A program made the position numbers and the translations under genes. This document shows, in pieces, positions 20,008 through 40,494 of a stretch of DNA of 44,372 nt (positions within the stretch are counted from its first letter, which is position 1; each line of letters begins with the position of its first letter). The notes below the pieces were generated by a model. The model searched no databases. It had not been told where the DNA came from and saw nothing but the letters and a program-made list of their open reading frames with translations. The DNA comes from Candidatus Dormiibacterota bacterium (lineage in GTDB: Bacteria > Chloroflexota > Dormibacteria > Aeolococcales > Bog-877): contig DAHUZI010000032.1 of assembly GCA_027306595.1 (NCBI GenBank), positions 1-44,372 of the forward strand, written 5' to 3'.

Positions 20008-20135
20008 GCCCGACGCGAGCGCGGGGCCGGGTCGCCGGGCCGACGTCATCACCATCGAAGCACGGGGCGATACGGCGCGGGCACGTGTCCGTGGGATTGC
20101 CCCGTGACCCGGTGCAATTAGAGGGAGGGAGGACC

Positions 20136-21758: not shown

Positions 21759-21777
21759 TTGCCCCGGCCTGAGGGGA

Positions 21778-22978: not shown

Positions 22979-23051
22979 GCGGACGGCGTGGTCACCGCCT
23001 TCCTGGTGCCAGCGCGGTGAGCCGAGACCCTCGACGGACATCCGGTCGGGA

Positions 23052-24146
23052 TTGGCCATCTCGACCGGCGCCCCCGCGCTGGGCGCCGCTGGGGGAGGGG
23101 TCCGGCCCGGGGTCCACGGGTTGACCCGCACCGTCGGCTCGCGCCTCATCGGGGCAGCCATCACCCTCTTTATCGCCTCGGTGGCCGTCTTCGTGATCCT
23201 CCGGCTGCTGCCGGCCGACCCCGCCAGGCTCATCCTCGGCCCGTTGGCCAGCCCGGCCGCGATCCAGCACGAGCGGGCGGCCCTCGGTCTCGACCAACCC
23301 CTCTACACCCAGTACGCCACCTACCTGGTCGGCTTCGCCCACGGGAAATGGGGCTTCGACTATGAGAACGGCACGCCCGTGCTGACCGAGGTGGTGACGC
23401 GGCTGCCCGCCAGTCTCGAACTGGGGTTCTACGCCCTGCTGTTCGCCACGGTCGGTGCGGTCGTCGCCGCCGTGGCCTCGGTCGGGGCTCGCTCGCACGC
23501 GGTCGACCGTATCTTCCGATCGCTTGCCTTCGTCGGACTCGGCAGTCCGCCGTTCTGGATCGGCCTCATGGCGCTCGTGCTCTTCGCCGAGTACCTGCAC
23601 TGGCTCCCTGGTCCGGTCGGTCGGCTCGGAGTCGGGATTGCGCCGCCGCCCACGACGACGCACTTCTACACCTGGGACGCCCTGCTGCACGGGCGATGGG
23701 GCACGTTCGTCGATGCCTTCCGGCACCTGCTCCTGCCCGCCCTCACTCTCGGCCTGGCTCCGTTCGGATACCTGTTCCGGCTGCTCCGGCACAGCCTCAT
23801 GGAGGTGAGTGACGAGGACTTCCTGCTCGTGTGTCAGGGCAAGGGCCTCACCCGTTGGCAGGCCCTGCTGCGCCACGGCGTCCCCACCGCCCTGCTCCCG
23901 GCGCTCACCGCGCTGGGGCTCCTCGTCGCCCAGCTCGTTGCCGGGAGCGTGCTCGTCGAATCGGTGTTCGACTGGCCCGGGGTGGGTCAGCTGGTGGTGA
24001 ACTCCGTGCTGGCCCGCGAGTACGGGGTGGTTCAGGCCTTCGTCATCCTCAGTGCGGTCGCCTTCGTGCTCATGAACATGGTGGTCGACGCCCTGTATGT
24101 CGTCGTCGATCCTCGGCTGCGCCGGCCGGCCACGGTCTCACGATGA
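23052..24146 (+). CDS. ABC transporter permease, DppB/OppB type
   Basis: A 364-residue permease. It shows the DppB signature: SRLIGAAITLFIASVAVFVILRLLPADPARLILG, then ALGLDQPLYTQYATYLVGFAHGKWGFDY. Further helices follow, and an EAA-type loop (VCQGKGLTRWQALLRHGVPTA), ending LVESVFDWPGVGQLVVNSVLAREYGVVQ. TTG 23052 is the longest start and has little ribosome binding site support. TTG 23121 would remove a Gly/Ala-rich leader and place the first helix nearer the N-terminus, as in most homologues. Its TGA overlaps the ATG of the ATPase gene (ATGA at 24143-24146). Confidence 0.87.
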   Translation: MAISTGAPALGAAGGGVRPGVHGLTRTVGSRLIGAAITLFIASVAVFVILRLLPADPARLILGPLASPAAIQHERAALGLDQPLYTQYATYLVGFAHGKWGFDYENGTPVLTEVVTRLPASLELGFYALLFATVGAVVAAVASVGARSHAVDRIFRSLAFVGLGSPPFWIGLMALVLFAEYLHWLPGPVGRLGVGIAPPPTTTHFYTWDALLHGRWGTFVDAFRHLLLPALTLGLAPFGYLFRLLRHSLMEVSDEDFLLVCQGKGLTRWQALLRHGVPTALLPALTALGLLVAQLVAGSVLVESVFDWPGVGQLVVNSVLAREYGVVQAFVILSAVAFVLMNMVVDALYVVVDPRLRRPATVSR

Positions 24147-25219
24147 TCGCGGCCGATGCGACACCGGCGGTCAACCCTTGCACAGTTGCACCGCCGGTGC
24201 TGCAGGTGCAGAACCTCACCGTGGCGTACGGTCACGGGCCAGGAAGGGTCATCGCCGTACGCGACGTTAGCCTCACCATTCGAGCCGGTGAGAGGCGGGG
24301 GGTGGTCGGCGAGTCGGGGTCGGGCAAGACGTCGCTGGCGCGGGCGATCCCGGGCCTGCTGAGCCGAGGCGGGCGGGTCGTCGCCGGTCGGGTGCTAGTG
24401 GCCTCGCGGGACCTGCGCGACCTCTCGCCGCGCGCCAACGCCCTGCTGCGCCGCTCCGCCGTCAGCGTGATCTTCCAGGACCCGCTTAACGCGCTTGACC
24501 CGGTCCGGTCGATCCGCTCCCAGGTCTCCGAGGCCATCCGCCTTCGCCGACCGGGGGCGCGCCGCCAGAGTCGCCGACGGATGCGCGCCGACGTCGAGGC
24601 TCTGCTGGAGGAGTGCGAGATCCGCGACGCCGCGCGGGTCATGGGGCAGTACCCGCATGAGCTCTCCGGGGGGATGCGCCAGCGGGTGGCGATCGCCATG
24701 GCCGTCGCCGGGGACTGCACCCTGATCATCGCCGATGAGCCCACCACCGCCCTCGATGTCGCCACCCAGGCCGAGATCCTGCAGATGCTACGTCGGGTCA
24801 TCGCAGACCGCTCTAGTGCAATCATGTTCATCACCCACAACTTGGCGGTCGTGAGCCAGTTCTGCGACACGGTCTCGGTGATGTATGCCGGGCGCGTCGT
24901 CGAAGAGGGTCCCTGCGCCGAGGTGGTGCGCGATCCTCTCCACCCATATAGCCAGGGACTCATCGCCGCCATTCCCAGCCTTACCGGCCCCCGCCAGGAG
25001 CTGGTCGGCATTCCCGGGGAGCCCCCGCTCCTGAGTGAGCCCGAGTCCGGCTGCCGGTTCGAGCCGCGATGCCGGGTGGGACACGGCGTCGCGATCTGCC
25101 GGGAACAGGTGCCGGGCCTGGACCCGCTGCCGGGACGCTCCGGACTCCGGCACGTCCGCTGCCACCTCGTCGATCGGGCCTCGGTCGGTCGAGCCCCGGC
25201 GCCGGCGCGCGAGGCCTAG
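24143..25219 (+). CDS. ABC transporter ATP-binding protein, DppD/OppD type
   Basis: A 358-residue ATPase. Walker A is GESGSGKT at about residues 56-63, the Q-loop is in VIFQDPLNALDPVRSI, the signature is LSGGMRQRVAIAMAVAG, Walker B is LIIADEPTTALDV, and the H-loop is FITHNLAVV. The C-terminal oligopeptide-transporter extension is present (LHPYSQGLIAAIPSL, then GCRFEPRC), with the cysteine cluster usual for this subfamily. It energises uptake together with the next gene. The start overlaps the permease stop by ATGA, so translation is coupled. Confidence 0.92.
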   Translation: MIAADATPAVNPCTVAPPVLQVQNLTVAYGHGPGRVIAVRDVSLTIRAGERRGVVGESGSGKTSLARAIPGLLSRGGRVVAGRVLVASRDLRDLSPRANALLRRSAVSVIFQDPLNALDPVRSIRSQVSEAIRLRRPGARRQSRRRMRADVEALLEECEIRDAARVMGQYPHELSGGMRQRVAIAMAVAGDCTLIIADEPTTALDVATQAEILQMLRRVIADRSSAIMFITHNLAVVSQFCDTVSVMYAGRVVEEGPCAEVVRDPLHPYSQGLIAAIPSLTGPRQELVGIPGEPPLLSEPESGCRFEPRCRVGHGVAICREQVPGLDPLPGRSGLRHVRCHLVDRASVGRAPAPAREA

Positions 25220-25227
25220 CCGTCCCG

Positions 25228-26262
25228 GTGCCCGTCGCGCCTGTGTCCAGGCCCTCCACGCTGGCCACAGGGCCGGCCCTGGAGGTGGTCGATCTCAGCA
25301 AGGCGTACCTCGGCGCGCGCCCGAGGTGGAGCGGTGCGCGTCCCGTCATCGAAGCCATTCGCGGCGTCTCATTCCGGGCCGCGCCCGGCGGCATCCTCGG
25401 CATCGTCGGGGAGACCGGCTCCGGCAAGTCCACCCTGGCACGCTGCATCGCCGGGTTGACCCAGCCATCCGCGGGCCGGGTGGTGTGGGGAGACGTCACC
25501 CTCACGGCGCTCACGCGCGAGCAATGGCGCCTCACCCGACGACGTCTCCAGATCGTGCTCCAGAATCCGTATTCAACGTTGGACCCGAGGATGTCGGTCG
25601 GTCAGATCGTCGCCGAGCCGCTCGCGAACTTCGAAATCGGCACACCGCGCGACCGCCTGGAGATGGTCCGCGAGACGTTGGCCACGGTCGGGCTCGCCCC
25701 GAGCCTGGCGGGCAGCCGGCCGGCGGCCCTCTCAGGTGGACAGCGACAGCGGGTCGCCCTGGCCCGTGCCCTGGTGCTCCGTCCCGAGCTGCTGATCCTC
25801 GACGAGCCGGTCTCTGCCCTCGACGTCTCGGTGCAGGCTCAGGTGCTGAACCTGCTCCTGCAATTGCACCGCGCGCTGGGCCTCTCCTACCTTGTCATCG
25901 TTCACGACTTGGCCGTCGCCAGGCAGGTGTGCGATTCCCTGGTGGTCATGTTCGCCGGGGCGGTGGTCGAGGAGGGACCGGCCGACGCGATCCTCAGTCG
26001 TCCGATGCACCCCTACACCCGCCAGCTGGTGGCGGCGTCGCCGGAGATCGGAAAAGACCGAACGGACGGTCGAGCGGCGGCCGGTGACGCCGCTCGTCCG
26101 CCGGGAGCCGTCCATCGGCCGATCGGGTGCCGGTACCGCCCGCGCTGCCAGCTCACGCAGGGCGAGCCGGTGTGCGGCACCGTCGACCCGGAGCTGCGCG
26201 AGCTCGAGCCCGGCCGCAGGGTCGCCTGCCACCTGTCCCCCGAAGGCTCCGCCGATGGGTGA
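25228..26262 (+). CDS. ABC transporter ATP-binding protein, DppF/OppF type
   Basis: A 344-residue ATPase, the second of the heteromeric pair. Walker A is GETGSGKSTLARC, the Q-loop is in IVLQNPYSTLDPRMSVGQ, the signature is LSGGQRQRVALARALV, Walker B is LLILDEPVSALDVSVQ, and the H-loop is VIVHDLAVARQV. The C-terminal extension HPYTRQLVAASPEIG, then IGCRYRPRC, matches DppF. GTG 25228 lies nine bases after the DppD stop and gives a short Pro/Val leader before LEVVDLSKAY. The frame is open further 5' inside dppD but without homology. Confidence 0.9.
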   Translation: MPVAPVSRPSTLATGPALEVVDLSKAYLGARPRWSGARPVIEAIRGVSFRAAPGGILGIVGETGSGKSTLARCIAGLTQPSAGRVVWGDVTLTALTREQWRLTRRRLQIVLQNPYSTLDPRMSVGQIVAEPLANFEIGTPRDRLEMVRETLATVGLAPSLAGSRPAALSGGQRQRVALARALVLRPELLILDEPVSALDVSVQAQVLNLLLQLHRALGLSYLVIVHDLAVARQVCDSLVVMFAGAVVEEGPADAILSRPMHPYTRQLVAASPEIGKDRTDGRAAAGDAARPPGAVHRPIGCRYRPRCQLTQGEPVCGTVDPELRELEPGRRVACHLSPEGSADG

Positions 26263-26348: not shown

Positions 26349-27725
26349 GTGGAGCTCGACACGGTCGTCCGGTCGGGGCTGGTGACGACCGCGGCCTTCA
26401 GCCGGGTGACGGACCTGGGGATCCGCGACGGCCGGGTGGCCGCCATCGGCCCGCACCTCGACGCGCCCAACGTGATCGACGCCAAAGGGCGGCACGTGGT
26501 CCCGGGCCCGATCGACCCGCACACCCACTTCGGCAACAGGTTCGGGGGAGTCGAAGCGCTCGACGACCACGCGAGCGGCACCCTGGCCGCGGCGGTCGGC
26601 GGGGTCACCAGCGTCATCAACTTCACGTTCCCGCTGCCCGGCCAGCCGCTGCTGGAGGCTGTGGAGCGGGAACGGGCGGCTGCGGCCGGGCGAGCCCACG
26701 TTGACTATGCATTCCACGCTGTCGTCACCCCCGCCGCGGCCGCTGACGTCGCCGGCGAGCTGCCCGCGCTCGCCGCCGCGGGGGTCACCAGCCTCAAGGT
26801 CTTCATGGCCGGGGAGGGACTGGCCCTGAGCCGAAGCCAGCTCCTCGACGTCCTCGCGGCCGCCGCCCGCAATGGCTTCGTCGTAGCGGTGCACGCCGAG
26901 GACGGACCGTTGGTCGACCAGCTGACGGCGTCGCTGATCGCGTCAGGGCATCGGTCGATGTCGCACCTGACGCAGGCCCGCCCGCCGGCCGCGGAGGCGG
27001 CGGCGGTCGAGCTCGTCAGCCGCTACGCCCAGGAGCTTGGCGCCACCGTCTACCTGGTGCACCTTTCCTCTCGCGCCGCGCTGGCGGCGGTGCGGGCCGC
27101 CCGAGAGCGTGGCGCGCGGCTCCATGTCGAGGCCAGGCCCGCCCACCTCCTCCTGAGCGATGACCGCTACGAGCTGACCCGCACCAGGGCGCGCGACTTC
27201 GTCTGCTGGCCCCCACTGCGCCCGGCTGATGACCAGGCCGCCCTGTGGGAGGGTCTCGAGTCGGGTGAGATCCAGACCATCGGGACCGACCATGCCGGAT
27301 GGCCTCGGAGCGATCCCCCGGCGGCGCTCCCCGGATTCGACGAGGTCATTCCCGGGATGCCGGGCGTCCAGACCCTTGTCGCCCTCCTCTTCGCCGAGGG
27401 GGTGGCGCGCGGACGACTCACCATCGAGCGCTTCGTCGAGGTGACGGCGGTGAATCCCGCCAAGATCTTCGGGCTGTGGCCACGCAAGGGGAGCCTCGCC
27501 ATCGGCAGCGATGCCGACCTGACCGTGATCGACCCCGGGCGCTCGGCGAGGGTCGTGAGCTCGCGGATGGCTTCGCGATCCAGCTTCGACCCCTTCGACG
27601 GCTGGACGTTGAGGGGATCGCCAGTCCTCACGATGTTGCGCGGTACGGTGGTCGCCCGTGACGGGGCCGCAGCCGGCGACGGACCCTCGGGCGCCTACCT
27701 GTCGCGACCACTGCCACCATCGTGA
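26349..27725 (+). CDS. Dihydropyrimidinase/hydantoinase-type cyclic amidohydrolase
   Basis: A 458-residue binuclear-metal hydrolase of the D-hydantoinase/dihydropyrimidinase/allantoinase family, which opens cyclic amide or ureide rings. All metal ligands are present: His58 and His60 (DPHTHFG), Lys150 for carbamylation (SLKVFMAG), His182 (AVHAEDG), His238 (YLVHLSS) and Asp314 (GTDHAGW). The last motif differs from the usual SDH/TDHCP context of characterised dihydropyrimidinases, and CWPPLRP replaces CSPPLR, so it is a divergent clade whose substrate is uncertain. GTG 26349 has GGAGG five bases upstream. It is the first enzyme after the transporter genes, the position expected for the initial ring-opening step. 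An in-frame 5' extension lacks homology. Confidence 0.88.
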   Translation: MELDTVVRSGLVTTAAFSRVTDLGIRDGRVAAIGPHLDAPNVIDAKGRHVVPGPIDPHTHFGNRFGGVEALDDHASGTLAAAVGGVTSVINFTFPLPGQPLLEAVERERAAAAGRAHVDYAFHAVVTPAAAADVAGELPALAAAGVTSLKVFMAGEGLALSRSQLLDVLAAAARNGFVVAVHAEDGPLVDQLTASLIASGHRSMSHLTQARPPAAEAAAVELVSRYAQELGATVYLVHLSSRAALAAVRAARERGARLHVEARPAHLLLSDDRYELTRTRARDFVCWPPLRPADDQAALWEGLESGEIQTIGTDHAGWPRSDPPAALPGFDEVIPGMPGVQTLVALLFAEGVARGRLTIERFVEVTAVNPAKIFGLWPRKGSLAIGSDADLTVIDPGRSARVVSSRMASRSSFDPFDGWTLRGSPVLTMLRGTVVARDGAAAGDGPSGAYLSRPLPPS

Positions 27726-27802: not shown

Positions 27803-29551
27803 GTGCCTGACACGATCACCACCGAGGTGATCCATCACGGTCTCCTCGCGGCGGCCCAGGAGATGGCCCGCAACCTCTGCCGGACCGCCTACAACACCAT
27901 CGTCTATGAGATTCACGACTACGGAGTTGGGATCCACGACCCGGACGGCAACGTGGTCGCCGACGCTCCGGGCATCGCCAGCTTCACCGGGGCCAACGAC
28001 TTCGGGGTGAAGCGTGTCCTCGAGGTCTTGGGGCGCAGCTCCCTGGTTGCGGGCGACATCATCCTCCTCAACTACCCGTATTGGTCCGGGGCCCACACCC
28101 TGGACGCGCTGGTGATCGCGCCGATCGTCGAACACGAACGGCTGATCGCCTTTGCCTCCTGCCGGGTTCACCTGCTCGACCTCAAGCAGCGGCATGCGGG
28201 CTACGTTCTCGATTCCACCGACATGGCCGAGGAGGGCCTCTTCTTCCCCGGGGTGAAGCTCTACGCCGCGGGCAGGCCGCGGCCAGACATCTTCAATCTC
28301 GTCCGCTTCAACAGCCGGATGCCGGAGCGAACCTTGGGGGACCTCCAGGCGCAGGTCTCCGCCTGCCAGACCGGGGAGCGGCTGGTCCAGGCGATGGCTC
28401 GGCGGTACGGGGCGCGGGAGTTAGTCGAGGCCATGCGTGAGATCAATGACCACGGAGCGCGGCTGGCGCTCGCGGGGCTGTCTCGGCTGCCCACGGGCAC
28501 ATGGTCGGCGATTGACTACGTCGACAGCGACGGCATAGCCACCGACGAACTCGTGAAGCTCGAGGTGACGGTGACGGTGCAGCCGGACCGTATGGTAGTC
28601 GACTGGAGCCGCACCGACCGACCGGCCCGCGGACCCATCAACCTGCCTCGCGGTCGCACCCTGGCGGTCACCATGCTGGCCTTCAAGGCGCTGACGACCC
28701 CGGACAGCCCGGTGACATCCGGGAACTTCCGCCCCCTCGAGGTCCTCACCACACCGGGTTCGCTGATGGAGGCGGTGCCGCCGATGCCCACATTCACGCA
28801 GTGGACGGGGCTGCTCGTCCCGGAAGTGATCACCAAGGCGCTGGCGCAGGGGATGGCCTCTCTGATCCCAGCCTGCTCGGGTGGCGATATCTGCGACGTC
28901 ATGACGCTGGGGCCCGCGTCCTGGACCGGGGCCCCCTGGTTGGAGGCGATCAATGACGCCGTTGGGTTCGGCGGCCACGCGGAGGGGGACGGGTCGGACG
29001 GGATCACCCACGTGACCCAACCGGGGTGCCGCAACAACCCGATAGAGGTCTTCGAGACGAGGGCTCCGGTGCTGATCGAGCGGTACGGGTACCGGGTCGA
29101 CTCGGGCGGTCCCGGCACCCACCGCGGCGGGGTCGGGGTCGAGCGGACGTACCACTTCCTGGCCCCGGCTACGGCCATCGTCATCAACTACAAGACCCGG
29201 ACCTCCCCGTGGGGGTCAGCCGGCGGCCGTCCCGGGCGCCGCAACGAGGTCATCGTGCATCCGGGCACCGATCACACGCGGCGCGTCGGAGCCAGCCGCA
29301 ACGAGCTCCTGCCCGGAGATCGCCTCACCAACCTCACGGGCGGCGGGGGCGGCTGGGGGGACCCGATCGGGCGCGACCCGGCCCTGGTGGCCGCCGATGT
29401 CGAGTCCGGGCTGGTCACGGTGGGGCGGGCAGCGATCGACTACGGGGTCGTCGTCGACGCCAGCACCGGGCTCGTCGACGACGCCGCCACCCAGGCGTTG
29501 CGCGGTGCCGTCCCCGGGGGTGATCGGGACGGACCGTCGAGGCCGGGTTGA
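27803..29551 (+). CDS. hyuB: Hydantoinase B/oxoprolinase family protein, copy 1
   Basis: A 582-residue HyuB-type subunit. HyuA/HyuB enzymes use ATP to open cyclic amides (N-methylhydantoinase, 5-oxoprolinase, caprolactamase) or, in relatives, to carboxylate ketones. Conserved blocks include the N-terminal LLAAAQEMARNLCRTAYNTI, GDIILLNYPYWSGAHTLD, the Gly-rich CSGGDICDV and GFGGHAEGDG regions, HRGGVGVERTYHFL, and the C-terminal LTNLTGGGGGWGDP. GTG 27803 has GGAGG eight bases upstream. By eye it matches the second HyuB at 32685 over its full length at roughly three-quarters identity. No HyuA directly precedes it, which is unusual. Its TGA overlaps a possible TTG start of the LLM gene. Confidence 0.9.
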   Translation: MPDTITTEVIHHGLLAAAQEMARNLCRTAYNTIVYEIHDYGVGIHDPDGNVVADAPGIASFTGANDFGVKRVLEVLGRSSLVAGDIILLNYPYWSGAHTLDALVIAPIVEHERLIAFASCRVHLLDLKQRHAGYVLDSTDMAEEGLFFPGVKLYAAGRPRPDIFNLVRFNSRMPERTLGDLQAQVSACQTGERLVQAMARRYGARELVEAMREINDHGARLALAGLSRLPTGTWSAIDYVDSDGIATDELVKLEVTVTVQPDRMVVDWSRTDRPARGPINLPRGRTLAVTMLAFKALTTPDSPVTSGNFRPLEVLTTPGSLMEAVPPMPTFTQWTGLLVPEVITKALAQGMASLIPACSGGDICDVMTLGPASWTGAPWLEAINDAVGFGGHAEGDGSDGITHVTQPGCRNNPIEVFETRAPVLIERYGYRVDSGGPGTHRGGVGVERTYHFLAPATAIVINYKTRTSPWGSAGGRPGRRNEVIVHPGTDHTRRVGASRNELLPGDRLTNLTGGGGGWGDPIGRDPALVAADVESGLVTVGRAAIDYGVVVDASTGLVDDAATQALRGAVPGGDRDGPSRPG

Positions 29552-29556
29552 ATCCG

Positions 29557-30480
29557 ATGCGGATCGGCGTCTTCCTCGGAGCCTGGGGAGCCCTGGCTTC
29601 GACCGAGCACATCCGCAACTTCGCCGAGGTTGCCGAGGCCGCTGGCTTCACGACTCTCTGGGTCGGTGACCACATCGTGATCCCGAAGGTGCAGGGCTCC
29701 ACCTATCCCTACAGCCCGACCGGGCAGTCACCGTTTCGCGCCGACGACTTCCTCTTCGAACCCATCAGCCTGGTCGGGTACCTTGCCGGACGGGTGTCCC
29801 GGATCGGCCTCGGGATCAGCGTCTACGTCCTCCCGCTGCGCAACCCCGTCCTGTCGGCGAAGCAGCTGGCGGGTCTCCAAGCACTCTCCGGGGGCCGGCT
29901 CTCGGTCGGCATCGGAGTAGGGTGGCTTCGAGACGAGTTCCAGGCCCTCCAGGCCGACTTTGAGGCGCGGGGTCGGCGTGCCGAGGACTACCTTCGGGTC
30001 GTCCGCCACCTCTGGACCCGGCCGCAGGACCCGATCCATACGGACGCGTACGCTGTGCCCGCGGTCGGCTTCGCCCCCGTGCCGAGCCCGCTCCCCCCGT
30101 TGCTGGTCGGCGGCAACTCGGCGGCCGCGATCGGGCGTGCCGCGCGCCACGCCGATGGATGGCACCCGCTGCGAATCTCGGCGCAGAGGCTGGCGATGGG
30201 TCGCGAGCAGCTCAGGTGCGCGGCCACCGCGGCAGGTCGCGACCCGGCCACCCTGAAGGTGGTGCTGCGCCGTCCGCTGATGGGCGCCCACGAGTTGGGT
30301 GCGGATCCGCCCCGGCCCGCCGACGGTCTGTGGGCCGTCCTCGAGCGCAGGCTGCACCAGTATCATATCGCTGGTGTGGATGAGTTCGTAGTGGAGTTCC
30401 CGCTGGACACGGTGACGCCCGGGCGCCAGCTGGCGTGGCTCGAGTGGCTCGGGGCTCGTGCCCGGGGGGCCTTTGAATGA
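29557..30480 (+). CDS. LLM class F420-dependent oxidoreductase
   Basis: A 307-residue luciferase-like (TIM barrel) oxidoreductase. It begins MRIGVFLGAWGALASTEHIR, with AGFTTLWVGDHIVIP, LGISVYVLPLRNPVLSAKQL, LSGGRLSVGIGVGWLRDEF and LPPLLVGGNSAAAIGRAARHADGW, the order typical of the F420-dependent LLM families (TIGR03619-like) rather than FMN-dependent alkanal monooxygenases. It would perform a hydride transfer or oxygenation on the pathway compound. ATG 29557 gives the canonical MRIGVF start; TTG 29548 overlaps the HyuB stop and has GAGG five bases upstream, so it is a real alternative. It lies between hyuB copy 1 and hyuA. Cofactor assignment is by family resemblance. Confidence 0.85.
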   Translation: MRIGVFLGAWGALASTEHIRNFAEVAEAAGFTTLWVGDHIVIPKVQGSTYPYSPTGQSPFRADDFLFEPISLVGYLAGRVSRIGLGISVYVLPLRNPVLSAKQLAGLQALSGGRLSVGIGVGWLRDEFQALQADFEARGRRAEDYLRVVRHLWTRPQDPIHTDAYAVPAVGFAPVPSPLPPLLVGGNSAAAIGRAARHADGWHPLRISAQRLAMGREQLRCAATAAGRDPATLKVVLRRPLMGAHELGADPPRPADGLWAVLERRLHQYHIAGVDEFVVEFPLDTVTPGRQLAWLEWLGARARGAFE

Positions 30481-30592
30481 GGGCGGTTGGCCCAGGATCG
30501 GACGGACCCCGGCGGCGCCCGAGCCTCCTCGGCACCACCCAGCGCCCTGGCGTCCGGCCGCGCCCGATCCAGGCTGCGCCGGGAGCTCAAGG

Positions 30593-30608
30593 CACGATCT
30601 GGATCGTG
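30593..30608. promoter_or_regulatory. 16-bp perfect dyad upstream of hyuA (candidate operator)
   Basis: CACGATC, TG, GATCGTG: a perfect 7-bp inverted repeat with a two-base spacer. It ends 20 bases before the hyuA ATG, in the 148-base gap after the LLM gene, which is the longest non-coding gap between the enzyme genes. The size and symmetry fit a dimeric repressor site. I did not find a second exact copy by eye. Confidence 0.4.
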
Positions 30609-30628
30609 GACACCACCCCACCGGCCTC

Positions 30629-32692
30629 ATGACGCCGTCCGCTTCGGCACCGATCCGCCTCGCCGTAGACGTCGGGGGCACGTTCACCGACATCGTGGTC
30701 CACGACGGCTCCGACGGCGGGCTCCGGTTCGACAAGGTCCCGACCACTCCGGCCGAGCCGGGCACGGGGGTGCTGGCGGCGGTCGACCGTGCCCGCGTCC
30801 CCCTGGCCGCGGCTGGCTACTTCGCCCATGGAACCACGCTCGGGCTCAATGCCCTCCTCACCAGGGCCGGCGCCAGGACCGCGATCGTGACCACGAGGGG
30901 GTTCCGCGACGTCTACCTTCTCGGCCGCACCGACCGCTCAGTGTCGTACGACTTCAAGTACCGCAAGCCCAGGAGCCTGGTCCCGCGCAATCTCATCTTC
31001 GAAGTCCCCGAGCGGCTGAACTTCCGCGGTGAGGTGCTGGAGGCCTTCGACACCGAGTCGGCCCGTACCGTGGCGCGGACGATCCACCAGCTGGGCGTGG
31101 CGTCGGTGGCGGTCTGCTTCCTCCATGCCTACGCCAATCCAGCCCACGAGCTCGCGATGCGGGAGCTGCTCCTGGCGACCGCCCCCGGGGTTGAGGTCAC
31201 TCTCTCGCACACCCTGACGCGTGAGTACCGGGAGTACGAACGGACCAGTACCGCCGTACTCGACGCCTACATCCGGCCTCTGGTGCGCACCTACATCCAG
31301 CGGCTGGAGACTGCGCTAGGCGACGGGGGCTTCGCCGGTCGCTTCTTCATGATCCGCTCCGGCGGTGGGGCCATGACCGCGAGACGTGCCACCGACGCCC
31401 CGGTAAACCTGATCCTCTCCGGGCCCGCCGGGGGCGTCATCGGCGCCGCCCATTTCGGTGCGGCCATCGGCGAGCCCGACCTCATCAGCATCGACATGGG
31501 CGGGACCAGCCTGGATGCGTCGCTGATCCGCGACGGCCATCCCGTGGTCCACACCGAGGCCGCCTTCGAGGGGCTCCCGATCATGGTACCGTCCCTCTAC
31601 ATCAACACCATCGGGGCTGGGGGCGGATCGGTGCTGTGGGTGGACGAGGCCGGCCACCTCCAGGTCGGCCCGCGCAGCGCCGGGGCCAGCCCCGGCCCGG
31701 CATCCTACGGGCAGGGCGGAACCGAAGCCACACTCACCGACGCGGCCCTGGTGACGGGGTTCCTCGGCCCCGAGACGGCGCTTGCAGGAACGCTCCGACT
31801 CGATCCGGAGTTGGCGGTGGCGGCCCTTCGCCCTCTGAGCGAGGCGCTGGGGATGTCCGTAGACCGCGTCGCCGTCGGCGCCATCCGCATCGGCGTGACA
31901 AAGATCGTGGGCGCAATCCGAGCCATCACGGTCGAGCTCGGCCACCGACCTTCGGACTTCGCGCTGCTGGCGTTCGGGGGTGCGGGCGGGCTCCTCGCCG
32001 CAGAGGTGGCCCGCGAGCTCGCGATTGAGCGTCTCATCGTGCCGCCGGGCCCTGGTTCGTTCTCGGCCCTGGGCATGCTGATGGCCGACGTGCAGCACGA
32101 TCGGGCTCAGACCTACGTCACCGTTCTCGAACGAGCCGATCTCGGGGCCCTGGAGCATGAGTTCAGCGGAATGGAGCGGCAGGTCACCGAGGCGCTGAGC
32201 GAGGACGGCTTCAGCGCCGACCGCATGCGCCTGATCCGGCTCGCCGACATGCGCTACCAGGGCCAGGAGCATACCGTCTCGATTCCGATCGTCGCCGCCA
32301 TCACCCCTGCGGAGGTGGAGCGGGTGAGCCAAGCCTTCGCCCAGGCCCACCAGGTTCGGTACGGTCACGCGCTCGCGGACCCTGTCGAGATCGTGACGCT
32401 TCGCAGCCGAGGCCTCGGCCGAGTCGACCGTCCCGAGCTGCCCGCGATCGCCCGGCGCAGCTCCGGCGCGCTGAACCCAGCCTCACAGCGGCGGCTGCGA
32501 CAAGACGACGGCTCCGAGCTCGACGTCCCCGTCTACCACCGCGACCGCTGCGCTTTCGGGGACGAGATCGCCGGTCCGGCCGTCATCAGCGAGCACACGG
32601 CGACCACGGTCCTGCACCAGGGAGACGTGGCCCGGGTCGGTGCCCTGGGCGAGCTCAGGATCGCCGTCGCGTTGAGGGCCGTCGGTGAGTGA
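30629..32692 (+). CDS. hyuA: Hydantoinase A/oxoprolinase family protein
   Basis: A 687-residue ATP-binding HyuA subunit with an ASKHA-type fold. The N-terminal domain has LAVDVGGTFTDIVVHDG (phosphate loop) and HGTTLGLNALLTR. The second domain has LILSGPAGGVIGAAHFGAAIG and LISIDMGGTSLDASLI, then INTIGAGGGSVLWVDEAGHLQVGP and SAGASPGPASYGQGG. The C-terminal part has LAFGGAGGLLAAEVARELAI and MRYQGQEHTVSIPI. It is expected to pair with HyuB for ATP-dependent cleavage of a cyclic amide. ATG 30629 opens just before the phosphate loop; no clear ribosome binding site is seen. The stop overlaps the start of hyuB copy 2 by eight bases, so this HyuA is translationally coupled to copy 2, not copy 1. Confidence 0.9.
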   Translation: MTPSASAPIRLAVDVGGTFTDIVVHDGSDGGLRFDKVPTTPAEPGTGVLAAVDRARVPLAAAGYFAHGTTLGLNALLTRAGARTAIVTTRGFRDVYLLGRTDRSVSYDFKYRKPRSLVPRNLIFEVPERLNFRGEVLEAFDTESARTVARTIHQLGVASVAVCFLHAYANPAHELAMRELLLATAPGVEVTLSHTLTREYREYERTSTAVLDAYIRPLVRTYIQRLETALGDGGFAGRFFMIRSGGGAMTARRATDAPVNLILSGPAGGVIGAAHFGAAIGEPDLISIDMGGTSLDASLIRDGHPVVHTEAAFEGLPIMVPSLYINTIGAGGGSVLWVDEAGHLQVGPRSAGASPGPASYGQGGTEATLTDAALVTGFLGPETALAGTLRLDPELAVAALRPLSEALGMSVDRVAVGAIRIGVTKIVGAIRAITVELGHRPSDFALLAFGGAGGLLAAEVARELAIERLIVPPGPGSFSALGMLMADVQHDRAQTYVTVLERADLGALEHEFSGMERQVTEALSEDGFSADRMRLIRLADMRYQGQEHTVSIPIVAAITPAEVERVSQAFAQAHQVRYGHALADPVEIVTLRSRGLGRVDRPELPAIARRSSGALNPASQRRLRQDDGSELDVPVYHRDRCAFGDEIAGPAVISEHTATTVLHQGDVARVGALGELRIAVALRAVGE

Positions 32693-34412
32693 TTCGATCA
32701 CGGTGGAGGTGATCCGCCATGGGCTCCTGGCGTCCGCCCAGGAGATGGCTCGGAACCTCTGCCGGACCGCTTACAACACCATCGTGTACGAGATCCACGA
32801 CTACGGCGTGGGCCTTCACGACCCCGACGGCAACGTGGTGGCCGACACGCCTGGGATCGCCAGCTTCACCGGGGCCAACGACTTCGGCGTGAAGAATGCG
32901 GTGAGCTTTCTGGGCCGCGAGTCGCTCCACGATGGCGACGTGATCCTGCTGAACTATCCCTACTGGTCGTGCGCGCACACGCTGGACGCCTTGGTCCTGG
33001 CCCCGGTCATGGTGGACGATAGAGTGATCGCCTTTGCGTCCTGCCGCGTCCACCTCCTGGACCTCAAGCAGAAGGACGCCGGCTACGTGCTCGACTCCAC
33101 CGACATGGCCCAGGAGGGGATCTTCTTCCCCGCGGTCAAGGTCTGTGAGCGCGGCCAGCCCAACCAGGACATCCTCAACATCATCCGATTCAACAGCCGA
33201 CTGCCGGAGCGGACCCTGGGAGACCTGCATGCGCAGATCTCAGCGTGCCAGACCGGCGACCGGCTGATCAAGGCGATGGCCCGCAAGCACGGCGTGGAAA
33301 CCCTGATCGAGGCGATGCGGGAGATCAACGACCATGGCGAGCGGCTCACGCTCGCTGCGTTGGCGCGATTGCCCAAGGGCACCTGGTCGGCGGTCGACTA
33401 CGTCGACAGCGATGGCGTGGTCGAGGATCAGCTGCTCAGGCTCGAGGTGTCGGTGACCATTGCCGACGACAAGATGATCGTGGACTGGAGCCGGACGGAT
33501 CAGCCCGCCCTGGGGCCGCTCAACGCGCCTCGGGGACTGACCCTGGCCGTCACCATGCTGACGTTCAAGTTCCTCACCACTCCGGACAGCCCGGTGACTG
33601 CGGGCAACTTCCGTCCCCTCGAGGTGATCACCAAGCCGGGATCGCTGATGGAGGCGGTCCCACCGATGCCGACCTTCACGCTCTGGACCGGCCTGCTGGC
33701 GCCGGAGGTGATCACCAAGGCGCTGGCCAAGGGCATGCCGGGACTGATCCCCGGCTGCTCCGGTGGGGACGTCTGTGACGTGATGGCGCTGGGGCTCGAC
33801 CCGAGAACCGGACAGCCCTGGTTGGAGGCCATCAATGACGCCGTTGGGTTCGGCGGGCACGCCGAAGGCGATGGCGAGGACGGCATCATGCACGTCACGG
33901 AGCCTGGCTGCCGCAATAATCCCATCGAGGTGCTGGAGACCAAGGCACCTCTCTTGATCGACCGGTACGGCTACCGTCCGGATTCTGCCGGCCCGGGCCG
34001 GCACCGCGGTGGGGTGGGAGTCGAGCGCACCTACCACTTCCTCGCCCCCGCAACCGCGATCGTGATTAACTACAAGACGAAGACTCAGCCCTGGGGGTTG
34101 GAGGGGGGTGGCCCGGGGGTGAGCAACACCGTGATCCTGCGCCCAGGGACCGCCCAGGAGCAGCGGGTGGGCGCCAGCTACAACCACCTCCAGGCCGGAG
34201 AGCGGATTACCAACCTCACCGGCGGCGGCGGCGGCTGGGGAAACCCATTCGAGCGCGACCCCGAGCGAGTCGCCGGCGACGTGGAGGCGGGGCTGGTGAG
34301 CCTGGGGCATGCGGCCGATGAGTATGGCGTGGTGATCGATCCCACCTCTCGCGTGGTCGATGTCGCCGCCACCCGCGCCAGGCGCTCGGTGGCTCCGGAT
34401 GGAGCCCCGTGA
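32685..34412 (+). CDS. hyuB: Hydantoinase B/oxoprolinase family protein, copy 2
   Basis: A 575-residue HyuB subunit, starting at a GTG eight bases inside hyuA. It aligns without large gaps to the copy at 27803: shared blocks include EMARNLCRTAYNTIVYEIHD, FTGANDFGVK, YVLDSTDMA, EAMREINDHG, TPDSPVT and TNLTGGGGGWG. Differences cluster at positions such as YPYWSCAHT versus YPYWSGAHT and in the C-terminal 30 residues. The copies have therefore diverged as proteins while keeping the fold. Being coupled to hyuA it is the more likely cognate partner. The TGA overlaps the GTG of the next gene (GTGA at 34409-34412). Confidence 0.9.
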   Translation: MSDSITVEVIRHGLLASAQEMARNLCRTAYNTIVYEIHDYGVGLHDPDGNVVADTPGIASFTGANDFGVKNAVSFLGRESLHDGDVILLNYPYWSCAHTLDALVLAPVMVDDRVIAFASCRVHLLDLKQKDAGYVLDSTDMAQEGIFFPAVKVCERGQPNQDILNIIRFNSRLPERTLGDLHAQISACQTGDRLIKAMARKHGVETLIEAMREINDHGERLTLAALARLPKGTWSAVDYVDSDGVVEDQLLRLEVSVTIADDKMIVDWSRTDQPALGPLNAPRGLTLAVTMLTFKFLTTPDSPVTAGNFRPLEVITKPGSLMEAVPPMPTFTLWTGLLAPEVITKALAKGMPGLIPGCSGGDVCDVMALGLDPRTGQPWLEAINDAVGFGGHAEGDGEDGIMHVTEPGCRNNPIEVLETKAPLLIDRYGYRPDSAGPGRHRGGVGVERTYHFLAPATAIVINYKTKTQPWGLEGGGPGVSNTVILRPGTAQEQRVGASYNHLQAGERITNLTGGGGGWGNPFERDPERVAGDVEAGLVSLGHAADEYGVVIDPTSRVVDVAATRARRSVAPDGAP

Positions 34413-35680
34413 CCCCCACCGAGATCGTGCCTGCGCCGGCCTCGGACGAGGCGGGGGGGCCGCCGATCCATCTGACCAACGCCAGGGTGCTGGATCCGGT
34501 CTCCGGCTCGCTCGGGTCGCCGATGACGATCACGGTATCCGCAGGGACGATCGTCGCCATCGAGGAAGGCCGCCCCGGAGGTGACGGCCGATGCATCGAC
34601 CTCACCGGTCTGGTGGTGCTGCCCGGGCTGATCGACTGTCACGTCCACGTGACCGCCTTCTCGGCCGACGAGGCCAGCCTGAGCCGGTCGTCGGCCAGCT
34701 ACGTCACTGCCCAGGCGGCCCGTTCGATGGCGGCGATGCTGCAGCGGGGGTTCACCACCGTTCGCGACGGCACCGGGGCGGACTGGGGGCTGGCAGCGGC
34801 CGTTGCCGAGGGGCTGCTCCCGGGACCTCGCCTGCTCTTCTGCGGCCCCTCCCTCACCCAGACCGGCGGGCATGCCGATCACCGCGGTCCCAGCGATCAC
34901 TCCGCTCCGACCGGCCCGGCCTTCCCCTCCCATGGGATCGTCTGCGACGGAGAGGCCGAGGTGCGGCGAGCCGCCCGCGAGGTCCTGCGCGCCGGCGCCG
35001 ACCACGTCAAGATCATGCTGTCGGGCGGGGTCGCCTCGCCCACCGATCGCGTCGACAGCACCCAGTTCTCGGCGAGCGAGATCGCGGCGGTGGTGGAGGA
35101 GGCCACGGCGGCGGGGCGCTACGTGATGGGGCACGCCTACCCGGCGGCGGCAATCAATCGCGGGCTCGTGGCCGGGGTGCGGTCGATCGAGCACGGCAAC
35201 CTCCTGGACGACAGCAGCCTTGCCCTGTTCACCGCCCGGGGCGCGTACCTGGTCCCGACCCTCGTGACCTACCGCGCCCTGGTCGCGGAGGGCGACCGCT
35301 GGGGGCTGCCTCCGCAGAGCGCGGCCAAGGTGCGCGATCTCTTCGAACAGGGGCTCTTGGCCCTAGAGCGCGCCGACCGCGCCGGGGTCGCGATCGCGTT
35401 CGGAACGGACCTCCTGGGAGGGATGCAGCGGCATCAGTCCGAGGAGTTCGCCATCCGAGCGCAGGTCCAGTCGCCGCTCGCGGTCCTGCAGTCCGCGACC
35501 GTGGTCGGGGCCAAGCTGCTCGGCCTGGAGCACTGCGTTGGCCAGATCCGGCAAGGGTACGCCGCCGACTTGATCGCCGTCGACGGGAATCCGCTCGATC
35601 GGATCGAGATCCTGGCCGAGCCAGAGCGATCGCTGCGCCTCGTCATGCGCGATGGCAGGATCGTCCGGGACCGTAGCTGA
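34409..35680 (+). CDS. Amidohydrolase family protein (imidazolonepropionase/prolidase-like)
   Basis: A 423-residue metal-dependent hydrolase of the amidohydrolase superfamily. It has an N-terminal composite beta domain (IHLTNARVLDPVSGSLGSPMT), the metal motif HxH in LPGLIDCHVHV, the Lys ligand region DHVKIMLSGGVASP, His in MGHAYP and SIEHGNLL, and the catalytic Asp in IAFGTDLLGG, closing with GYAADLIAVDGNPLDRI. This is the Xaa-Pro dipeptidase/imidazolonepropionase-like group, which hydrolyses peptidic or cyclic amide bonds. It is a different subfamily from the hydantoinase-like gene at 26349, so the array carries two non-homologous-subfamily amide hydrolases. The GTG start overlaps the HyuB stop. 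Confidence 0.87.
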   Translation: MTPTEIVPAPASDEAGGPPIHLTNARVLDPVSGSLGSPMTITVSAGTIVAIEEGRPGGDGRCIDLTGLVVLPGLIDCHVHVTAFSADEASLSRSSASYVTAQAARSMAAMLQRGFTTVRDGTGADWGLAAAVAEGLLPGPRLLFCGPSLTQTGGHADHRGPSDHSAPTGPAFPSHGIVCDGEAEVRRAAREVLRAGADHVKIMLSGGVASPTDRVDSTQFSASEIAAVVEEATAAGRYVMGHAYPAAAINRGLVAGVRSIEHGNLLDDSSLALFTARGAYLVPTLVTYRALVAEGDRWGLPPQSAAKVRDLFEQGLLALERADRAGVAIAFGTDLLGGMQRHQSEEFAIRAQVQSPLAVLQSATVVGAKLLGLEHCVGQIRQGYAADLIAVDGNPLDRIEILAEPERSLRLVMRDGRIVRDRS

Positions 35681-35768
35681 TGCCGGCGCCGGAGACGTCA
35701 GGGCTGGCCGAGATGGCACCGTCGCCGGCTGCCACCTGGCCTGCCCTGCCGTGACACGAGGAGACCGC

Positions 35769-36656
35769 GTGGACACTTCCCGATTGGCCGCCGACAGGGT
35801 CGAGGTCGCGTGGGCGGGCCGGTCCGCCATCGGCGAGAGCCCATATTGGGACGCGGCGCACGACGCCGTCGTGTGGGTCGACATCGGGACACGGAAGGTG
35901 TGCCGCCTCGAGGTTGAAACCGGCCGCTACCGTTCCTGGCAGATGACCGAGCACATCGGCGCCGCGGTGCCGCGCCGGGGCGGCGGCATGGTGGTGGCCC
36001 TGGGCGCGGGATTTGCCGCCTTCGATCCCGAGGATGGCTCGCTTTCGATGCTGGCGCCGCTCGATTTGGGCGACAGCCAGGTTCAGCTCAACGACTGCCA
36101 GTGCGACCGCCATGGTCGGATCTGGGGCGGAACCCAGGGCGAACCCCCGCGGGCGGCCCACCTCTATCGCCTCGACGCCGGCCATGGGCTCACCACCGTG
36201 CTCGACCAGGTCACCGTCTCCAACGGCATCGGCTGGAGCCCGGACGATCGATCGATGTACTACGTCGACAGCCGGGAGCGTCGCATCGACGTCTTCGACT
36301 TCGACGTGGCCAGGGGAACGGTGAACAACCGTCGGCCCCTCGTGCACGTCCCCGACGAGGCGGGAGTGCCGGACGGACTCTGCGTCGACAGCGCCGGGAT
36401 GATTTGGGTCGCGCTGTGGGGGGGGGGCGCGGTGCGCCGGTATCGCCCCGATGGAGGACTGGATCGCGTGCTCCCGATCCCCGCGGCAAACGTCACCAGC
36501 TGCGCCTTCGGCGGAGCGGACCTCTCCACCCTCTACGTCACCACCGCGGCCCAGGGAATGACCGAATCCGAGCTGGAGATGCAGCCCGCGGCTGGCGCTC
36601 TCCTCGCGCATCGGCCGGGGGTGCACGGACAGCGTCCCAACGCCTACGCAGGCTGA
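35769..36656 (+). CDS. SMP-30/gluconolactonase/LRE family protein
   Basis: A 295-residue six-bladed beta-propeller lactonase-like protein. The N-terminal GESPYWDAAHDAVVWVDI motif carries the metal-binding Glu. LNDCQCDRHGRIWGGTQ, VSNGIGWSPDDRSMYYVDS with the Asn ligand, and VPDGLCVDSAGMIWVALWGGG with the Asp ligand complete the calcium/zinc site. Family members hydrolyse sugar or other lactones. As the last gene of the array it could open a lactone or act on a related cyclic product of the pathway. GTG 35769 is chosen for a GAGGAGA just upstream; the frame extends 5' without homology. It converges on a broken FAD oxidoreductase. Confidence 0.87.
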   Translation: MDTSRLAADRVEVAWAGRSAIGESPYWDAAHDAVVWVDIGTRKVCRLEVETGRYRSWQMTEHIGAAVPRRGGGMVVALGAGFAAFDPEDGSLSMLAPLDLGDSQVQLNDCQCDRHGRIWGGTQGEPPRAAHLYRLDAGHGLTTVLDQVTVSNGIGWSPDDRSMYYVDSRERRIDVFDFDVARGTVNNRRPLVHVPDEAGVPDGLCVDSAGMIWVALWGGGAVRRYRPDGGLDRVLPIPAANVTSCAFGGADLSTLYVTTAAQGMTESELEMQPAAGALLAHRPGVHGQRPNAYAG

Positions 36657-37230: not shown

Positions 37231-37596
37231 TGGACGCCCACCGCGCGCCGGCGCCTGCCGGGGATCGACGGCGTCGAAGGTGGACAGGCCCTCGCCGACG
37301 TCGGGGTGGTCGGCCTCGGCGTCCCTCTCCGGAAGGCCGACCAGCCGCGGGAGCGTGCCAGCGCGCAGGTGATCATGATGCGTATCTCCGGGCATCGGGG
37401 GGCGCCGTTCCCGCGACGGGGGATCACGGGAGGTCGCGGCGCTCCACCAAGGATTGGGGAGGATGATCGCTGCTGCGACCGAACTGGCGCCTCGGAGACC
37501 CACGCCGGCCCCGCGACCCCTGCCAGTGACCCGACCCCCGGAACCGGGCCGCGTGGTATGAGGGTTCCACCAGGGCCGACCCGGCCAGGAGGAACC
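37231..37596. other. Non-coding interval upstream of the IS3 remnant
   Basis: About 370 bases with only GC-artefact frames. A segment from 37527 (TGACCCGACCCCCGGAACC) resembles the left end of an IS3-group element and sits 70 bases before the OrfA start; this identification is tentative. The 37231-37400 part may hold further scrambled oxidoreductase sequence. Confidence 0.35.
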
Positions 37597-37749
37597 ATGA
37601 AGGGCAGGAAGCACGCGCCCGAGCAGATCGGCCGGAAGCTGCGGGATGGGGAGCGGCTGTTCGCCGAGGGCAAGAATATCGGCGAGGCGGCCAAGGCGCT
37701 CGAGATCGGCGACTGCACGTCCCTCCGCTGGCGCAACCAGTGCGGAGGG
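37597..37749 (+). pseudogene. IS3 family transposase OrfA, N-terminal stub
   Basis: ATG 37597 with AGGAGG four bases upstream starts MKGRKHAPEQIGRKLRDGER, LFAEGKNIGEAAKALEIGDC, TSLRWRNQCGG. This is the helix-turn-helix N-terminus of IS3-group OrfA (typically MKRKRxSPEQIVxKLREGERL ... TxxRWRNQYGG). Homology stops after about 50 residues where an IS21-type end begins; the frame runs on to 37896 as unrelated sequence. The leucine zipper and all of OrfB are missing, so it is inactive. Confidence 0.75.
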
Positions 37750-37751
37750 CT

Positions 37752-38114
37752 TGTCAACGGTCGCGAAGACCTCCCGGTGGGTGGCCATCGATACTCCCGG
37801 CGGGCGGCCACCGGACGACCGGGTGGGATCAGGCCAAGGGCTGCACTCCGCTGCCGGCCGTGGCCTCCGCGAGGCGGTGGGAGGTGCCCTGGTTAGGACG
37901 AGATGGGCGCGGCGGAGCAGGCAGTCCACCGCACCGGTGGCCAGGGGCTTGGGCATGATGGCGTCGGAGCCGGCGCGGTGCAGGTTCGACGTCACCGCCG
38001 CGCTCCGGCGTTCGTAGGCGGCGTCGACGACGCGGCAGAAGGCTTCGGCCGCGTCCTGCCCCGCTGGAAGGAGCCCGATGTCGTCGATCTGTGCGGATGT
38101 CGGCATAGCACGAA
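37752..38114 (-). mobile_element. IS21 family right-end fragment with istB 3' part
   Basis: Minus-strand istB coding sequence ends at a stop (37829-37831). It is followed by about 75 bases with the GTGGCCGCC/ATGGCCACC-type spaced repeats usual downstream of istB, reaching a terminus near TTGTCAACGGTCGC at 37751. The terminus abuts the IS3 OrfA stub. The other side is cut by the IS630 element at 38115; istA and the istB 5' half are absent. Confidence 0.55.
37829..38095 (-). pseudogene. istB: IS21 transposition helper ATPase IstB, frameshifted C-terminal fragment
   Basis: The minus-strand translation starts at the Walker B region IDDIGLLPAGQDAAEAF, continues CRVVDAAYERRSAAVTSNLH, DAIMPKPLATGAVDCLLRRA, HLVLT, and after a single-base loss resumes in the next frame as QGTSHRLAEATAGSGVQPLA and stop. 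This matches the C-terminal third of IstB/DnaC-like AAA+ proteins. The Walker A half is missing, removed at the left junction of the IS630 element. It is non-functional and a marker of nested insertions. Confidence 0.7.
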
Positions 38115-39276
38115 CTCGTGTCCTGCCCCTGAAATGCCTCGAAATATCCTTGAGTTTGCCGTTACTCCGAGGATGCAGCCTGCCCACCGCCACCCGAGGG
38201 CGGCGCACGGCGACGCTCGTCGTCAGCGATGAGGACCGCGACACGCTGACCCGATCGGCGCGGCGCCACACAATAGGACAGGCGTTGGCACTGCGTGCGC
38301 GCATCATCCTGGAGTCGAGCCTCGGCGCCACCAACCAACAGGTCGCCGGCACGCTGCGCATCACCAGCGCCACCATGGGCAAGTGGCGCTCGCGCTTCAT
38401 CGAACGGGGACCGGCAGGTCTGTTGGATGAGCCGCGTTGTGGTGTGCCACGCCGCATCACCGATGAGCAGGTCGAATCAGCGGTGGTTCGCACGCTGGAG
38501 TCGACCCCGCGAGACGCGACCCGTTGGAGCCTCTGGGGTCTCGCCGCGGAGACCGGCCTGAGCCGATCCAGGGTGCATCGAATCTGGCGCGCCTTCGGGC
38601 TCCAACCGCACCGCAGCGAGACCTTCAGACTGTCCACTGACCCGCAGGTGGTGGAGAAGGTCCGGGACATCGTCGGGCTCTACCTGGGCCCTCCCGACCA
38701 GGTGGCGGTTGTGTGCATCGACGAGAAGACGCAGATCGAGGCGCTGGATCGCTCGGAGCCAGTGCTGCCGATGCGGCCGGGCCACGCGGAGCGGCGCAGT
38801 TTCGACTACTGGCGCCACGGCACGCCGTCGCTGTCTGCCGCTCTCATGGTGGCGACGGGCGAGGTGGGGGCCGAGATCCGTCGCCGCCATCGTGCGGTGG
38901 AGTTCCGCGCCTTCCTCGATCACATCGATCGAGAGGTGCCAGCCGACCTTGAGGTGCACGTGGTGCTCGACACGCTCAGCACGCACGAGGCGCCACCGGT
39001 GCAGCGTTGGCTCATCCGGCACCGACGGTTCCACCTCCACTTCACGCCAACGTACTCGTCCCGGATCAACCAGGTGGAGCGGTGGTTCGCCGAACTGACA
39101 CGCAAGCAGTTGCCGCGTGGTGTTCACCGCAGCGCGCGCCAACTCGAGGACGCGATCGGCCTGTACCTGAAGACCTACAACGAGGATCCAAGCCCGTTCC
39201 GCTGGGTCAAGACCGCCGACGAGATCCTCGCCCGCATCCAGAGATCTTGTCCACGAACCCTTGGGGCAGGACACGA
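38115..39276 (+). mobile_element. IS630 family insertion sequence
   Basis: The element is bounded by perfect 15-bp terminal inverted repeats: CTCGTGTCCTGCCCC at 38115-38129 and GGGGCAGGACACGAG at 39262-39276. It is about 1.16 kb, normal for IS630. It contains one transposase. The TA target duplication expected of IS630 is not visible at both ends, so the ends or the target have changed since insertion. Left neighbour: istB fragment. Right neighbour: broken pRiA4b ORF-3-like gene. Confidence 0.8.
38150..39274 (+). CDS. IS630 family transposase, stop codon missing at element end
   Basis: About 375 residues from a TTG start (38150 or 38156; uncertain). The N-terminal helix-turn-helix region reads SDEDRDTLTRSARRHTIGQA, then LALRARIILESSLGATNQQV, ATMGKWRSRF and GLLDEPRCGVPRRI. 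The DDE catalytic domain has Asp in VVCIDEKTQIEAL, Asp in VHVVLDTLSTHEAP (usually LDNxxTH) and Glu in SSRINQVERWFAEL (usually SWLNQVE). The C-terminus is EDPSPFRWVKTADEILARIQ. Relatives stop at or just after the terminal repeat; here the frame runs through the repeat (LGAGHE) and stays open to 41344, which is an artefact of GC-rich sequence. All three catalytic acids remain, so activity cannot be excluded. Confidence 0.7.
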
Positions 39277-39317
39277 GACGGGGCCGCGCCCGTGGCCCGC
39301 ACGCCCGCACCCGGGAG

Positions 39318-39960: not shown

Positions 39961-40494
39961 GAGCCACTGGGACCTGCGGCTGTGCGTCGACGCGCGCCGC
40001 CCGCCTGGCGCGGGCCCGCCGACAAGTGGGCCGCGAGCTCCTCGACGGCCGGGCGCTCACCCCGGCGATTGTCGTGACGCCGTGGGTCCGCGGCGCCCGC
40101 GGCGCCGGCACGGGGCGCTGGGCGGCGCTCGCGGCCGACCCCGCCCGATTCTCCCGCGGTGTCCGCCGCTCGGTCGAGGGCTGGGCGCACGCCGCCGGTC
40201 GCGCGGGCTTGGCCGCCGTCCACCGCCTCGCGGGGCGCCCGGCACGCCCGGACGGGCCCGTGCTCGGGGGCGCGGAGCGGCTCGCCCGCCACCTGGCCTT
40301 CCCCACGCCGGTCTCGACTCGCCGACCAGGCCGACGGCTCGTGTGGAGCCGTGGGAGCGATGCGCTGCGTCGTCTGGCGGGCCGATCTTGGGATCGATCG
40401 ATCGCCAGCGGGAACGGCGCCCGCCGACCACTGGGCGGACCGCTTCGGCCTCGTCGCCCTCGAGCCGTGCACCCTGGGGGTTCGGGGGGGGGGG
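39961..40494. other. Interval of GC-rich DNA without a supported gene
   Basis: All frames are largely open because of base composition. Translations are Arg/Pro/Gly-rich, with no recognisable motif and no ribosome binding site. It may hold further scrambled remnants. Confidence 0.35.

Follow-up and report, generated by a model that had tools for sequence, protein, structure and literature searches.

Two HyuB-type beta subunits beside a single HyuA in a gene cluster of a Dormibacterota-type soil bacterium

Can one HyuA (alpha) subunit serve two different HyuB (beta) subunits? The family rule is two genes only, in the order hydAB, with one A and one B (PMC5214803). The window analysed here, a stretch of 44,372 nucleotides from a Candidatus Dormiibacterota bacterium (assembly GCA_027306595.1, contig DAHUZI010000032.1), contains a single HyuA gene between two HyuB genes. 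Its source genome (G000) is a metagenome genome of a Dormibacterota-type soil bacterium, with 2.6 Mb in 149 contigs and a completeness of 75.8%. As the pairing of one alpha with one beta is the rule both in the literature and in our survey of the class, a single A with two Bs is a real departure. The reading which we favour, and to which we give about an even chance, is that of a gene cluster for the breakdown of an imported compound, a cyclic amide or one derived from peptides, in which an ATP-dependent ring-opening enzyme of the CapAB/hydantoinase type would have two alternative betas on one alpha. Two specificities on one ATPase are plausible but unproven.

One alpha and two beta subunits

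The hydantoinase part of the cluster has the gene order B-LLM-A-B, with the following features:

27803 to 29551, + strand: HyuB1 (copy 1), beta subunit, 582 amino acids (aa), PF02538 (E 1e-146), Q333/Q406 state
28799 to 28801, + strand: HyuB1 codon 333 (Gln)
29018 to 29020, + strand: HyuB1 codon 406 (Gln)
29557 to 30480, + strand: F420-type LLM oxidoreductase gene, TIGR03619 at 212 bits (cutoff 166.9), start at TTG 29548 or ATG 29557
30629 (ATG) to 32692, + strand: HyuA, alpha (ATPase) subunit, 687 aa, PF05378, PF01968 and PF19278
32685 to 34412, + strand: HyuB2 (copy 2), beta subunit, 575 aa, PF02538 (E 1e-150), GTG start, L333/E406 state
33681 to 33683, + strand: HyuB2 codon 333 (Leu)
33900 to 33902, + strand: HyuB2 codon 406 (Glu)

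A gap-free alignment of the two betas spans 573 aa with 74% identity and 85% similarity (DNA identity 74%), in agreement with a sequence-only reading of the window, which had described two full-length HyuBs at about three-quarters identity. That reading was also right that there is one hyuA, coupled to copy 2: this is the sole HyuA between the betas, and it overlaps HyuB2 by 8 bp (HyuA stop at 32692, HyuB2 GTG at 32685). Copy 1 stands apart, as had been described, starting 77 bp past a dihydropyrimidinase-like gene with a GGAGG site in front and followed directly by the LLM gene.

HyuA carries the ATP motifs DVGGTFTD, DMGGT and GASPGP (of the DxGGTxTD, DxGGT and GxxPGP types) and the alpha-type beta-contact motif PERLNFRG (ER-type), while both copies have the metal ligands D39, H98, D101 and H123 and the catalytic Y134, as do all 31 betas which were compared. 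At 582 and 575 aa the betas have the size expected of the Hyd branch (about 570–580 aa). The order B-LLM-A-B departs from that branch's two genes in the order hydA-hydB (PMC5214803); gene number is a usual, non-mechanistic feature, and we class the system as a Hyd-branch variant. There was no gamma-like gene among the cluster open reading frames (ORFs) examined. This, and the length of the betas (575–582 aa vs about 670–720 aa), led us to reject an acetophenone or acetone carboxylase. A caprolactamase equivalog was rejected on NCBIfam CapA/CapB scores of 206–229 and 486 bits against a cutoff of 1000, and on the lack of a Cys-Cys in the pocket.

Three known systems were compared. CapAB of Pseudomonas jessenii (PDB 6YRA; PMC8453981) shares the ASKHA ATP motifs in alpha and the Asp-His-Asp-His metal site and Tyr in beta; its alpha uses ATP to activate the amide, a tunnel leads the intermediate to the beta metal site, and the enzyme is an (alpha-beta)2 tetramer whose core is formed by beta-beta contacts (PMC8453981). 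However, it has one alpha and one beta, the vicinal disulfide of its pocket is absent from the window betas, and identity is 28%. An AlphaFold2 model of HyuB1 (37 sequences, pLDDT 93.5) showed the usual beta-subunit fold with high confidence and had a TM-score of 0.90 to CapB and of 0.90–0.91 to the chains 6yra_B and 9h03_A, the nearest solved structures being 9H03, CapB 6YRA and subunits of acetophenone carboxylase (Apc) and acetone carboxylase (TM-score 0.84–0.91). N-methylhydantoinase (PDB 7HK5/9H03) was the best PDB sequence match for both window subunits (beta part TM-score 0.91, 29% identity), but its alpha and beta are fused in a single chain and the beta part is not exchangeable. Apc of Aromatoleum aromaticum (PDB 5L9W; PMC5214803), from the same superfamily, is a precedent for the duplication of a subunit type within a cluster, although it doubles alpha (alpha, alpha') with one beta, gamma and epsilon, whereas the window doubles beta and has no gamma. 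We found no published report of two betas on one alpha in the open-access literature.

To place this arrangement within the class, matches to PF02538 and PF01968 in 110 genomes were grouped by contig and strand, leaving out orphan matches (several at contig ends) and weak DUF917-type alphas. The 58 clusters with both subunits comprised 47 alpha-beta, 4 beta-alpha, 3 alpha-alpha-beta and 2 alpha-beta-alpha-beta clusters, one cluster of five genes (three betas, two alphas; G093 C29) and a sole beta-alpha-beta cluster, that of the window. The 47 AB and 4 BA clusters, like PMC5214803, bear out the earlier statement that known HyuAB systems use one A and one B. Dormibacterota, other Chloroflexota and Actinomycetota have close homologues (> 57% identity) of the window betas, and no other genome searched had more than one. 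The five-gene cluster (L073, G093 C29:9001-29000, 3200-18029) runs alpha-beta, beta-eliminating lyase, creatininase-type, M29-type peptidase, beta, beta, alpha and HpcH/HpaI aldolase-family gene. It resembles the window in its excess of betas on one strand in the same class; it differs in having two alphas and other neighbours, and its alpha-adjacent betas are 68% identical, the third about 30%. L099 was rejected as another beta-alpha-beta locus, its upstream beta lying 4.8 kb away with a partner that may be outside the L099 stretch.

Age of the betas and a coupled residue pair

At fourfold-degenerate sites 114 of 262 codons agree between the copies (43.5%, vs 39.6% expected from codon usage), meaning that these sites are saturated. 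NG86 gave a dN of 0.17, a dS of 1.06 and a ratio of 0.16, the ratio being rough as dS is near saturation. Because silent sites are saturated while dN/dS is low, both betas are, judged from their codons, old and long under purifying selection. A recent tandem duplication or an assembly artefact is ruled out by the 74% DNA identity and the saturated sites, and gene conversion was rejected as no segment of raised silent identity exists between the copies. Copy 1 has changed mildly faster (57 vs 36 unique changes in Tajima's test with L009, from the same genus as the window, as outgroup; chi-square 4.7; branch length 0.36 vs 0.16), and otherwise invariant columns are broken four times in copy 1 and once in copy 2.

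The sequence-only reading had asked whether a HyuB tree would place the duplication before the species. HyuB1, HyuB2 and the beta of palsa_862 (L008, equivalent to L067; genome G037), another genus of the same family, form one clade (98/92), but the order within it varies with sampling (B1+L008 78/77 vs B2+L008 81/48), so that the tree does not fix the date. A clade of HyuB1 and HyuB2 was disfavoured, not rejected (AU p 0.066 and 0.158). The palsa_862 beta shares 9 derived residues with copy 1 and 9 with copy 2, and the two copies share 1 with each other; these counts are suggestive, but no proof, of a duplication that dates back to the divergence from palsa_862.

The copies differ sharply at positions 333 and 406, which are Gln333/Gln406 in copy 1 and the palsa_862 beta and Leu333/Glu406 in copy 2. 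Position 333 adjoins W334 (aligned to CapB T336) and 406 adjoins T405 (aligned to C410 of the CapB vicinal disulfide); the CapB alignment in these loops is uncertain by about one residue and the pair is placed beside the pocket by homology. Only Q-Q and L/I-E occur among the 31 sequences (26 distinct), with 3–4 independent coupled switches, and the pair shows the most changes on the best tree among ten groups of identical-pattern columns with at least 3 changes. It was spotted in 16 sequences and held in the 15 added later. We regard the coupling as suggestive, not proof.

The states largely track the importer class of the locus. Q-Q loci have an Opp/Dpp importer and a dihydropyrimidinase (L008, L100 and L101) or OPT transporters (L018, L019 and L021), and L-E loci mostly have ribose-type Peripla_BP_4/BPD_transp_2 importers (n = 9; L010, L011, L012, L014, L020, L022, L097, L098 and L102). 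No HyuA column separates the Q-Q from the L-E types. From this association and the lack of a separating column, HyuB1 would be the beta type expected with an Opp and dihydropyrimidinase cluster, HyuB2 would be an extra of the other type, and the alpha looks indifferent. Opposite states at 333/406 without type-specific HyuA residues form the pattern expected if the beta were to set specificity and the alpha were shared.

Neighbouring genes, relatives and other alphas

The remaining genes of the cluster are:

19938 to 26262, + strand: Opp/Dpp-type ABC importer (PF00496, PF00528, NCBIfam Opp models), comprising a solute-binding protein (19938-21758), permeases (21926-22978 and 23052-24146) and ATPases ending at 25219 and 26262
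26349 to 27725, + strand: D-hydantoinase/dihydropyrimidinase-like cyclic amidohydrolase, start placed by a GGAGG site
34409 to 35680, + strand: amidohydrolase, Xaa-Pro-dipeptidase-like, PF01979, NF051886 at 262 bits (cutoff 500)
35652 to 36656, + strand: SMP-30/gluconolactonase-like protein, PF08450 (E 8e-80)

The best NCBIfam models for the dihydropyrimidinase-like gene fall below cutoff (PRK13404 390 bits, cutoff 647; TIGR02033 385 bits, cutoff 393), and the metal motifs of its product are intact. The amidohydrolase gene overlaps HyuB2 by 4 bp, and its homologues adjoin HyuAB in many relatives. Since every gene from the importer (19938) through SMP-30 (36656) is on the + strand and tightly packed, a single operon is likely. 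Consensus scans found no promoter match and a single terminator match, on the - strand at the importer's start. The cluster is closely followed by an IS630-type transposase (DDE_3, HTH_32; + ORF, 38078-41344), and GC is 0.67–0.72 in the cluster (about 20–38 kb) vs 0.75–0.78 in the left flank and far right end, together hinting at horizontal acquisition. Part of a further + ORF (37306-37896) resembles by eye the start of an IS3-type OrfA transposase, for which Pfam gave no match.

The palsa_862 cluster has the order importer-dihydropyrimidinase-HyuB-HyuA, as in the window, with a single HyuB (Q/Q) directly before the HyuA orthologue. Its importer is 68–80% identical to that of the window (57–80% for importer and dihydropyrimidinase together) and its contig ends within HyuA. 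About 500 bp of non-coding DNA takes the place of the LLM gene. The sequence-only reading had the betas bracket the oxidoreductase; the LLM gene does sit between copy 1 and HyuA, but as it is missing from this syntenic cluster, the bracketing is not conserved and is incidental. Because the single palsa_862 beta directly precedes the orthologous alpha, the beta at position 1 plausibly works with this alpha. Wherever a locus of this clade covers both genes, alpha and beta lie side by side. A separate contig of palsa_862 carries the amidohydrolase and SMP-30 genes; for about 590 bp the DNA upstream of them seems to be non-coding, so that no HyuB comes immediately before. The search of this genome (83% complete) gave a single beta of the clade. 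Two actinobacterial loci (L100, 9296-14291; L101, 6380-11285) carry an amidohydrolase, HyuA, HyuB (Q/Q), Opp importer and dihydropyrimidinase, which is the gene set of the window minus copy 2, LLM and SMP-30, in a compact single-beta counterpart.

A second hyuA coupled to copy 1 would have spoken against sharing, and none of the window type was found in the 75.8% of G000 represented by its 149 contigs. Apart from the window betas there is one full HyuB, on C25, next to a HyuA of its own (beta 29% and alpha 42% identical to those of the window), and a third alpha-like gene, of DUF917 type, lies on C111 without a beta, ahead of a gene that by eye reads as DUF917-like. The C25 pair (L068, G000 C25:22001-36610, 8229-12789) also has an LLM gene in front of it (30% identity to that of the window), so LLM-HyuA-HyuB recurs. 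The beta-less HyuA-like/DUF917-type pair on C111 (L069, 9981-16688) adjoins SBP_bac_5-like solute-binding protein genes (neighbour families by eye).

Alternative roles of the second beta

If the family chemistry holds here, HyuA would use ATP to activate the ring amide, and the intermediate so formed would move on to the metal site of HyuB for hydrolysis. Both HyuBs would dock on the same HyuA, giving (A-B1)2, (A-B2)2 or mixed tetramers, and two pocket types would widen the substrate range. We infer the shared partnership, the different substrates and the substrate itself, for which the neighbouring genes suggest a peptide-like or hydantoin/dihydropyrimidine-like cyclic amide. The intact, old betas, the importer-related states at 333/406 and the lack of type-specific HyuA residues support the earlier proposal of two specificities through two Bs. 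Several observations weigh against it. The CapB-pocket equivalents (mapping of PMC8453981) are identical between the copies except for I/V363, and the copies diverge less in active-site segments than elsewhere (20/135 vs 126/435, p 0.001); these argue against a gross change of specificity, and any difference would be subtle. The 333/406 coupling rests on 3–4 events, for which a sign test is unable to reach significance, and other column pairs also share patterns. L017 (L-E) has both importer classes and L009 (L-E) has an SBP_bac_5 gene. Finally, interface residues, whose loss in one copy had been named as a possible objection, are mostly kept in both, but copy 1 carries R11H on the N-terminal helix expected to face HyuA. 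This Arg is kept by CapB and, without exception, by 30 relatives, and its loss is the clearest mark against equal docking.

The conserved pocket and active-site segments, the purifying selection on both copies and the spread of differences over the protein with no significant regional enrichment would also fit two betas doing the same job on the same alpha, the second copy balancing subunit supply or serving other conditions. We consider such dosage or redundancy unlikely, though a serious candidate, because the copies have been distinct long enough for silent-site saturation, have opposite states at the coupled pair and have evolved at mildly different rates. One alpha might serve two opposite-pocket betas, possibly in a hetero-beta core A-B1:B2-A with halves that would act on different rings, or on one ring in different contexts. 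Such a modular choice of substrate through exchange of subunits, within the hydantoinase/ketone carboxylase family, strikes us as distinctly unlikely. An asymmetric A-B1:B2-A tetramer with a central B1-B2 pair, comparable to the alpha-alpha' duplication of Apc, is by itself slightly less likely still. CapAB betas form such a central dimer (PMC8453981), and the copies diverge more in the segment assigned to the beta-beta interface (33%) than overall (26%), which is also where copy-1-specific changes are most frequent (8/45). However, neither enrichment was significant (p 0.15–0.22), differences were not significantly concentrated at the alpha-facing helices either, and the palsa_862 genome shows only one such beta.

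It is improbable that HyuB1 partners a different alpha within the missing quarter of the genome. Copy 1 is uncoupled from hyuA and has lost R11, but of the only two further alphas found one has its own beta and one is DUF917-type, and both the palsa_862 order and the adjacency of alpha and beta throughout the clade speak for the local partner. The longer branch and four broken invariant columns of copy 1 could mark a decaying relic of duplication; this is very improbable, as the gene has no frameshift or stop, keeps all catalytic residues and the GGAGG site before its start, and shows low dN/dS with saturated silent sites.

The substrates of most HyuAB-type enzymes are not readable from sequence, and two alternative betas on one alpha would make this cluster a natural experiment, with the same ATPase, the same genome and two pocket types. 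Should the betas turn out to be exchangeable, the beta would be the seat of specificity, and annotation or engineering may become possible at two positions.

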